Below, one piece after another: positions 52,282 through 52,728 of a stretch of 64,000 nucleotides of DNA. The stretch comes from Erysipelotrichaceae bacterium. Its GTDB lineage: Bacteria; Bacillota_I; Bacilli_A; Erysipelotrichales; Erysipelotrichaceae. Made by a program: the position numbers and the translations under genes. How positions within the stretch are numbered: the stretch's first letter is position 1; each line of letters starts with the position of its first letter. A model generated the notes under the pieces. It was given only the letters and a program-made list of their open reading frames with translations. It made no database searches and was not told the origin of the DNA. The stretch covers positions 1 through 64,000 of the forward strand of contig JAFYHQ010000032.1 of assembly GCA_017539105.1 (NCBI GenBank). Direction: 5' to 3'.

Positions 52282-52349
52282 AAGATGCTGACAGCGATAT
52301 ACAATATCTGCCAATTTGATCTTCGGATGTTATTGGATTTAGGCATCTT
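52282..52349 (+). ncRNA. Hairpin 2
   Basis: AAGATGC (52282-52288) pairs with GCATCTT (52343-52349). TGACAGC follows the 5' strand. Inside are a GATAT-ACA-ATATC hairpin and a CCAAT/ATTGG stem that ends in a C(TTCG)G tetraloop. Confidence 0.7.
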
Positions 52350-52355
52350 GTTCAA

Positions 52356-52424
52356 ACGGCACTCGCAGCATATCTCTTGCACCATTACAATTCAGTGGAA
52401 CAAAGCAGTACCACGAAGTGCCGT
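52356..52424 (+). ncRNA. Hairpin 3
   Basis: ACGGCACT (52356-52363) pairs with AGTGCCGT (52417-52424). CGCAGC follows the 5' strand. Just downstream, GGAGATTATCTCC (52439-52451) is a small extra hairpin that would hide an AAGGAG sequence. Confidence 0.7.
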
Positions 52425-52458
52425 GTCATCGGAAACAAGGAGATTATCTCCTGAAACA

Positions 52459-52546
52459 AAGACGTTTACAGCAAACTTTCCAGCGAATGGTAAAGCACCC
52501 GATACAACATCGGGAAGCGGGTTCGAATCCCACACAAAAACGTCTT
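52459..52546 (+). ncRNA. Hairpin 4 with tRNA-like module
   Basis: AAGACGTTT (52459-52467) pairs with AAACGTCTT (52538-52546), 9 bp. ACAGC follows the 5' strand. The interior reads like a tRNA: D-arm AGC-N-TGGTA-AAGC (52482-52496), a 5-bp stem CCCGA/TCGGG with the 7-base loop TACAACA (52498-52514), a two-base variable part, and a T-arm with loop TTCGAAT (52522-52528) on a 5-bp stem with one C-A mismatch (52517-52533). Position 33 is A, not U, no CCA is encoded and 14 bases separate the outer stem from the D-arm, so this is a mimic, not a decoding tRNA. Confidence 0.75.
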
Positions 52547-52551
52547 GTAAA

Positions 52552-52605
52552 TATATTGCAAACACTGTCTGGGTATTACACCCTGACTTCAATGCTTGCA
52601 ATATA
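52552..52605 (+). ncRNA. Hairpin 5
   Basis: TATATTGCAA (52552-52561) pairs with TTGCAATATA (52596-52605), a perfect 10-bp stem. Inside, GTC-T-GGGT and ACCC-T-GAC form a second stem-loop (52567-52587). It lacks the CAGC element. Confidence 0.65.
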
Positions 52606-52615
52606 CCTAGAAACA

Positions 52616-52669
52616 AAGATGCTTGCAGCAATTGATGTGAATAAACACTCCATTAAATTACAGCATCTT
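52616..52669 (+). ncRNA. Hairpin 6
   Basis: AAGATGCT (52616-52623) pairs with AGCATCTT (52662-52669); the stem is that of hairpin 2. TGCAGC follows. The interior holds GTG-AATAAA-CAC and flanking AATT/AAATT. Confidence 0.7.
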
Positions 52670-52674
52670 GTCGA

Positions 52675-52728
52675 ACGGCACTCACAGCAACTCTCTCTTT
52701 ATAGGAAAGATCGACTACATAGTGCCGT
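52675..52728 (+). ncRNA. Hairpin 7
   Basis: ACGGCACT (52675-52682) pairs with AGTGCCGT (52721-52728); the stem is that of hairpin 3. CACAGC follows. The interior has TCTTT-ATAGG-AAAGA. The 3' flank runs into the AAAGGAGG ribosome site of the next gene. Confidence 0.7.

Follow-up and report, generated by a model that had tools for sequence, protein, structure and literature searches.

A stretch of 64,000 nucleotides (nt) from an Erysipelotrichaceae bacterium (assembly GCA_017539105.1, contig JAFYHQ010000032.1, positions 1 to 64,000), referred to here as the window, carries at positions 52234-52728 an array of six RNA hairpin modules upstream of a gene for a DUF2828/vWA protein, which is followed by rtcB. 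The region would encode a modular Y-RNA-like RNA. All six modules follow one plan, i.e., an outer stem of 7 base pairs (bp), three bases, a CAGCRA core, a variable interior, and the 3' strand of the stem with a G behind it. The outer stem and the core probably constitute a docking site for the downstream-encoded DUF2828 protein, which has a Ro60-like predicted fold, and the interior would be an exchangeable cargo. Across the family, this cargo often mimics tRNA, in some cases with a near-complete tRNA-like fold, as in module 4, and in others with a lone anticodon stem-loop that has one of many anticodons. We lean to the view that the array and RtcB together form a Y-RNA-like ribonucleoprotein (RNP) that displays tRNA mimics as baits or adaptors around anticodon-loop damage.

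The modules were scored with R1, a covariance model built from 59 modules, which on the window returned these six and nothing further below an E-value of 0.1. All are on the plus strand. Module 1 (52234-52273; stem CAGACAC/GTGTCTG, core TTGCAGCGA) scores 28.3 bits. Modules 2 (52282-52349; AAGATGC/GCATCTT, TGACAGCGA, 32.2 bits) and 3 (52356-52424; ACGGCAC/GTGCCGT, TCGCAGCAT, 20.6 bits) are hairpins 2 and 3 of a preliminary description of the region, and modules 5 (52616-52669; AAGATGC/GCATCTT, TTGCAGCAA) and 6 (52675-52728; ACGGCAC/GTGCCGT, TCACAGCAA, 34.8 bits) are its hairpins 6 and 7. Module 5 scores 40.1 bits but is itself among the training sequences of R1, and in module 3 CAGCAT replaces CAGCRA. 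Module 4 (52459-52546; AAGACGT/ACGTCTT, TTACAGCAA, 29.2 bits) has a tRNA-like interior. The preliminary description overlooked that hairpin 1 (module 1) and this tRNA-like hairpin are modules of the same kind with the same core, and that the array is located ahead of a DUF2828-rtcB operon.

A Module Family Linked to DUF2828 Genes

The motif was derived from loci of the same genus, and modules were counted in the 900 nt upstream of DUF2828 in the best 80 of 466 bacterial genome stretches, in which the genus loci reappear as L014-L025, and in the best 80 of 310 viral relatives. The genome loci contain 196 modules on the gene strand, distributed over 74 of the 80 loci, and 6 on the other strand, with an average of 11.4 in shuffled sequences; outside the genus set, 158 modules are present in 62 of 68 loci. 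For the viral loci, the figures are 108 modules on the gene strand (52 of 80 loci), 8 on the other strand, and 8.5 in shuffles. The consensus reads AAGRYRC NNA CAGCAA ... GYRYCTTG, with compensatory changes in the stem, pairing being the criterion of selection. Since the modules for the count and for R1 were selected by stem pairing, the 99% pairing of their stems is by construction, and the evidence lies in the contrast with the other strand and the shuffles and in the loci on which R1 was not trained.

With R1, all 149 matches in the genome loci (68 loci, training members included) are on the gene strand, as are all 38 matches in the loci of named phages, 16 of 18 of which have a match. DUF2828 was found in seven genomes of a phylum sample of 195, in two of them with stop codons; in the four intact loci other than that of the window, none of which was used for training, a module is positioned just before each gene, the weakest one scoring 17.3 bits. 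Among 41 relatives, R1 matches were present in 9 of the 10 genomes with DUF2828 and in 3 of the 31 without (G039, G018, and G045), where they were single and weaker. The gene occurs in 13 of 61 searched genomes, including that of the window, all of one genus, and arrays of the same kind are found upstream of the genus genes wherever the leader is readable. Most of the named relatives belong to the Erysipelotrichaceae or the Clostridia, and many come from animal guts.

The possibility that the modules are functionless remnants of tRNA genes or of a repeat element is very improbable. The tRNA-like sequence and the tRNA arrays that adjoin the modules in phages would fit such an origin, but the core is invariant and the stem changes are compensatory across distant hosts and phages, and the bias for the gene strand is strict.

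In the phylum sample, G096, G136, and G207 likewise have a single R1 match each but no DUF2828. In another case (G009:C197:2166-2254, near L011), a module lies downstream of a DUF2828 gene with 40% identity, and T-arm-like and odd tRNA-like sequences are found nearby.

Fixed Stems and Changing Interiors

The preliminary description had claimed that the stems are held constant while the loops change. This was borne out when the window was compared with the 12 genus loci (L014-L025), the modules being grouped by outer stem. Between modules with the same stem, the identity of stem and core was 0.90-0.95, and the interiors were near the shuffled level, the identities in four classes (shuffled values in brackets) being 0.48 (0.47), 0.54 (0.51), 0.56 (0.49), and 0.57 (0.43). 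In the class of tRNA-like modules, the interior identity was 0.61 vs. 0.52 after shuffling, and in an alignment of these modules from nine species the outer stem is invariant and the anticodon and T arms covary. The accompanying suggestion that the stems are protein-binding platforms and that the loops carry specificity is supported by this turnover pattern and by the Ro60-like predicted fold of the neighboring protein, which the stems would bind.

tRNA Mimicry in the Interiors

Loops of 4 to 10 nt were compared in 285 interiors; a small number of nested modules are included in the counts, as are some long interiors that extend over true tRNA genes. Loops of 7 nt on stems of at least 5 bp were enriched (185 vs. 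51.0 in shuffled sequences), and they comprise T-loops and anticodon-type loops. Anticodon-type loops of the form YTNNNRA were found 44 times, compared with 1.3 times after shuffling and a maximum of 4 in 50 shuffles. When the 271 interiors of 20-120 nt were considered, such loops numbered 40 in the sense orientation, as against 5 when the reverse complement was read and 2.7 for random windows. Across the family, these loops contain many different anticodons. The sequences CTGTTAA, CTTTTAA, CTCATAA, and CTGTAAA match the loops that ordinary tRNAs for Asn, Lys, Met, and Tyr carry. When stems of 4 bp were allowed, 11 of the 285 interiors showed both arms, 47 only the anticodon arm, 31 only the T-arm, and 196 neither; those with only the anticodon arm have a median length of 40 nt, which is too short for a tRNA. 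A scan for D-arm-like cargo was positive in 27 of the 271 interiors, in 20 on the reverse complement, and in 9.3 in random windows.

In module 4, a D-arm-like part (52482-52497, GGTAAAGC), an anticodon-arm-like part (52498-52514, loop TACAACA, without U33), and a T-arm-like part (52517-52533, loop TTCGAAT, one C-A mismatch) can be discerned. Within module 4 of the sister species, the Rfam tRNA model scores 37.7 bits, tRNA detection there being partial. Neither ARAGORN nor Rfam reported a tRNA or a complete cloverleaf in the window.

These interiors bear on another explanation, which is possible but doubtful, i.e., that the arrays belong to a degradation RNP resembling RYPER, in which RNA quality control would be exerted by PNPase, tethered through a tRNA-like RNA to the Ro60-like ring, and the interiors would be handles of low specificity. 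A machine of Rsr, Y RNA, and PNPase is known in Deinococcus (PMC7790460 and PMC8394870, both in the portions covered), and module 4 is indeed tRNA-like. However, tethering of PNPase does not need lone anticodon stem-loops with many anticodons, and interiors that occupy one slot have diverged until they are close to the shuffled level.

U33 of anticodon loops is usually universal. Among the 271 interiors, 18 anticodon-type loops without U33 were present vs. 40 with it; such loops with a C or G at position 33 (CCGTTAA, CGTTTAA, and CCTCTAA) occur in upstream modules of L102, L104, L105, L111, L117, and L159.

The DUF2828 Protein

The gene downstream of the array (52758-54206, plus strand) encodes a DUF2828/DUF7788 vWA protein with a Ro60/TROVE-like predicted fold. 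In Pfam, it matches DUF7788, DUF2828, and VWA_2 only, and not TROVE (PF05731); no match to PF05731 was detected elsewhere in the genome of the window either, and this canonical TROVE domain was sought without success in the 195 genomes of the phylum sample. A comparison with PHROGs assigned the protein as a whole to PHROG 850, described as RNA-binding protein, with an E-value of 1.5e-141. When an AlphaFold2 model of the protein was compared with known structures, Ro60/TROVE chains constituted the ten best VIA rows (Z 11.2-14.8) and the best three Foldseek matches (E 3.9e-7 to 2.6e-4). The Ro60 match is covered by residues 14-481 of the model, which form a helical-repeat ring and a vWA domain, predicted with moderate confidence. 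The DxSxS metal site of the vWA domain (D293, S295, and S297) is invariant in 11 sequences. From the strict co-location of modules and gene and from the Ro60 fold, we infer that the modules dock on this protein.

Members of the protein family were found in 680 of the 50,697 phage records and, among bacteria, in 466 genome stretches. Among its phage carriers are phages of laboratory B. subtilis, M. smegmatis, and E. coli K-12, and in several phages the protein is annotated as a Ro-like RNA-binding protein.

RNA Repair Genes, tRNA Arrays, and Phages

In the window, the DUF2828 gene is followed by a gene for an RNA ligase of the RtcB family (54250-55452, plus strand; Pfam PF01139, E 1.4e-65), which would mend cut RNA. 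Of the 80 genome loci, 32 have RtcB encoded downstream in the same orientation. RlaP, a nucleotidyltransferase named for RNA repair, is represented by one cluster, identified on one member, in six genome loci and one viral locus.

In several phages, the DUF2828 gene adjoins tRNA arrays. Listeria phage P100 has a tRNA splicing ligase and an RNA ligase at the tRNA-array locus of its DUF2828 gene, and tRNA-Asn(gtt) of Bacillus phage BcoS-136 is immediately preceded by a module whose loop is CTGTTAA. In the genome of the window, ARAGORN recognizes an array of 11 tRNA genes in which a seventh module (L174:3203-3267; contig C17:8202-8266), whose anticodon-type loop is CTTATAA, separates tRNA-Ile from tRNA-Thr. 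No DUF2828 gene adjoins this module, and its 47.1 bits are the top score in the genome.

Such locations bear on the notion of a cis-acting leader, in which the DUF2828 protein would bind the modules in its own mRNA to repress it and the interiors would be irrelevant. In the bacterial genomes studied, the array is usually positioned directly 5' of the start codon, as expected for a leader, and the array in the window is without a terminator-like site. However, modules are found 3' of the gene in Staphylococcus phages SEP9 and 6ec and in mycobacteriophages Aegeus, LeBron, and Whirlwind, and the seventh module resides in a tRNA array on a different contig. Furthermore, the number of modules per locus, which reaches six (e.g., L074, L076, L078, and L080), exceeds the need of a repressor for sites. 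We therefore consider a cis-acting leader unlikely.

In BcoS-136, modules start shortly after TTGACA...TATAAT promoter-like sequences (L181:2880-2990 and 5470-5520), which, as judged from the sequence, suggests that an RNA starts near the module.

Possible Function and Comparison With Known Systems

On our preferred interpretation of a Y-RNA-like RNP displaying tRNA mimics, the mimics would most likely be baits, i.e., competitive substrates or sensors, for anticodon nucleases; alternatively, the cargo may serve as an adaptor that brings tRNA-handling enzymes to the Ro60 ring. A precedent for baits is found in the Salmonella operon, whose tRNA-like YrlA was suggested, among other roles, to be a competitive inhibitor of an anticodon nuclease (PMC7790460, in the portion covered). 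More tentatively, the arrays might represent a swappable repertoire of anticodon-loop and tRNA baits on a Ro60-like protein, which would act as a shield or sensor against tRNA-cutting toxins or defenses. Gut bacteria and many phages would then be its users, and new specificities might arise by swapping of interiors and by duplication of modules, the latter as in the window.

Several observations weigh against the preferred interpretation. As 196 of the interiors have neither arm, mimicry is either not universal or undetected in these cases, and real tRNA genes within some of the long interiors inflate the T-arm counts. All six interiors of the window failed a strict anticodon-loop test, and by alignment module 4 is the sole tRNA-like one. 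Two of the 18 named-phage loci have no module. Within the fetched flanks, RtcB was not found in 46 of the 80 genome loci nor in any of the 80 viral loci. Finally, the Ro60 matches have root-mean-square deviations of 5-11 Å, and the mean pLDDT of the model is 75.7.

The arrays would work like a Ro-Y RNA RNP, the nearest being that of YrlA, but they differ from it in their core, array form, and cargo. They share with YrlA and Rsr, encoded in the rsr-yrlBA-rtcBA operon of Salmonella and Deinococcus, a Ro60-like protein, a protein-side stem, a tRNA-like part, and an adjoining RtcB. As for YrlA, the RNA is encoded beside a Ro60-type gene, the type being judged by predicted fold, and a tRNA-like domain, judged by alignment, is present in module 4 only. 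In contrast to YrlA, the modules form a tandem array of up to six, the core is a different one, and the cargoes include lone anticodon stem-loops and turn over fast. CAGCRA is not known to be the Rsr-binding consensus of YrlA. Also unlike in the Rsr operon, the protein belongs to DUF2828 rather than to Pfam TROVE, and a WYL regulator takes the place of RtcR; neither this activator nor the RtcA cyclase of the rtcBA operon was among the ten neighboring proteins scanned with Pfam. An Rfam 15 scan of the window, in which the presence of a YrlA model in the database was not checked, gave no family at cut-off and, when permissive, low-scoring matches only.

The Ro-like RNA-binding proteins described in mycobacteriophages and in Listeria phage CKA15 (PMC12282133) belong to the same family, PHROG 850, and modules lie beside their genes. 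The suggestion of phage Y RNAs in that report is based on protein homology and read depth; no module, core motif, or anticodon mimicry is given in the portion covered, and the hottest region of the report contains no module. The same portion lists CKA15 26,236-26,727 as the most abundant non-coding RNA of the Listeria phage. This peak (L186:2480-2971) overlaps no module and therefore was not used as evidence of expression; as it also has no Rfam match, it looks like a separate RNA near the tRNA genes. For phage tRNAs whose anticodon loops are altered, resistance to anticodon nucleases has been proposed (PMC10264068, in the portion covered). They have in common with the modules the field of conflict, i.e., anticodon loops, and the phage neighborhood. 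However, those are working tRNAs, whereas the modules have a closed-stem base without a free acceptor end.

A literature search, which extended to parts of the related papers, yielded no description of these arrays, and the papers on DUF2828 were plant papers by title. With these arrays, one large protein family is linked to an RNA module that is well delimited and can be counted (stem, CAGCRA core, and cargo). The cargo pattern predicts that the loop reveals which tRNA each RNP concerns.

The Duplicated Hairpin Pair

The preliminary description centered on a duplicated pair of hairpins, and its coordinates for the stems AAGATGC/GCATCTT (52282-52349 and 52616-52669) and ACGGCAC/GTGCCGT (52356-52424 and 52675-52728) are correct. 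The unit 52282-52424 recurs at 52616-52728 with both stems retained, and its linkers and flanks are alike; repeat families D2, D3, and D4 have 76, 85, and 75% identity, respectively. The top ungapped 26-mer repeat matches at 22 of 26 positions, the maximum across 200 dinucleotide shuffles of the same 527 nt being 20. A comparison of the interiors of the duplicated hairpins agreed with the description in showing no clear similarity. When the full RNA was folded, as had been recommended, the 527-nt leader proved more stable than shuffled sequences (z -3.26; 0 of 100 as good).

The closest sister (L002/L014; 89% protein identity) has no modules 2 and 3, and the extra pair in the window is therefore either a copy of the last two modules or was lost in the sister. 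Most simply, the duplicated unit is a recent copy of the last two modules, the interiors of which have been replaced since.

The identical stems had also been suggested to allow long-range alternative pairing. For hairpin 2 with hairpin 6, this is predicted for most pairs in the isolated RNA (P ~0.98), whereas local pairing is predicted for hairpins 3 and 7. Sister L014 has one copy per stem and folds locally (-99.4 vs. -98.4 kcal/mol with the span limited to 105), and hence the pairing of 2 with 6 is not conserved. Thus, cross-pairing appears possible for the RNA of the window but is not supported as a conserved mechanism; it is a by-product of the duplication.

Flanking and Intervening Sequences

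Upstream of the array lies a divergent gene for a WYL-domain regulator (51074-52069, minus strand; Pfam WYL, E 6e-05; PADLOC WYL, E 1.6e-14). PADLOC reported two WYL matches and two weak others, every one on this regulator. The leader or regulatory region between this gene and the array (52071-52230, plus strand) contains GTGGTC-type direct repeats and TGACAATTT...GAAAWTGTC arms, which are conserved in seven aligned genus loci and are possibly WYL operators. A scan of this leader for sigma-70-type promoters gave no site reaching the threshold.

A protein-coding array was considered and rejected. Two open reading frames (52285-52635 and 52418-52774) overlap the array, but coding is unlikely because relatives differ in the length and the sequence of the interiors.

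Between modules 4 and 5, a long linker hairpin (52545-52612, plus strand; inverted repeat I1) without a CAGCRA core is found, and this coreless hairpin is present in the sister species too.
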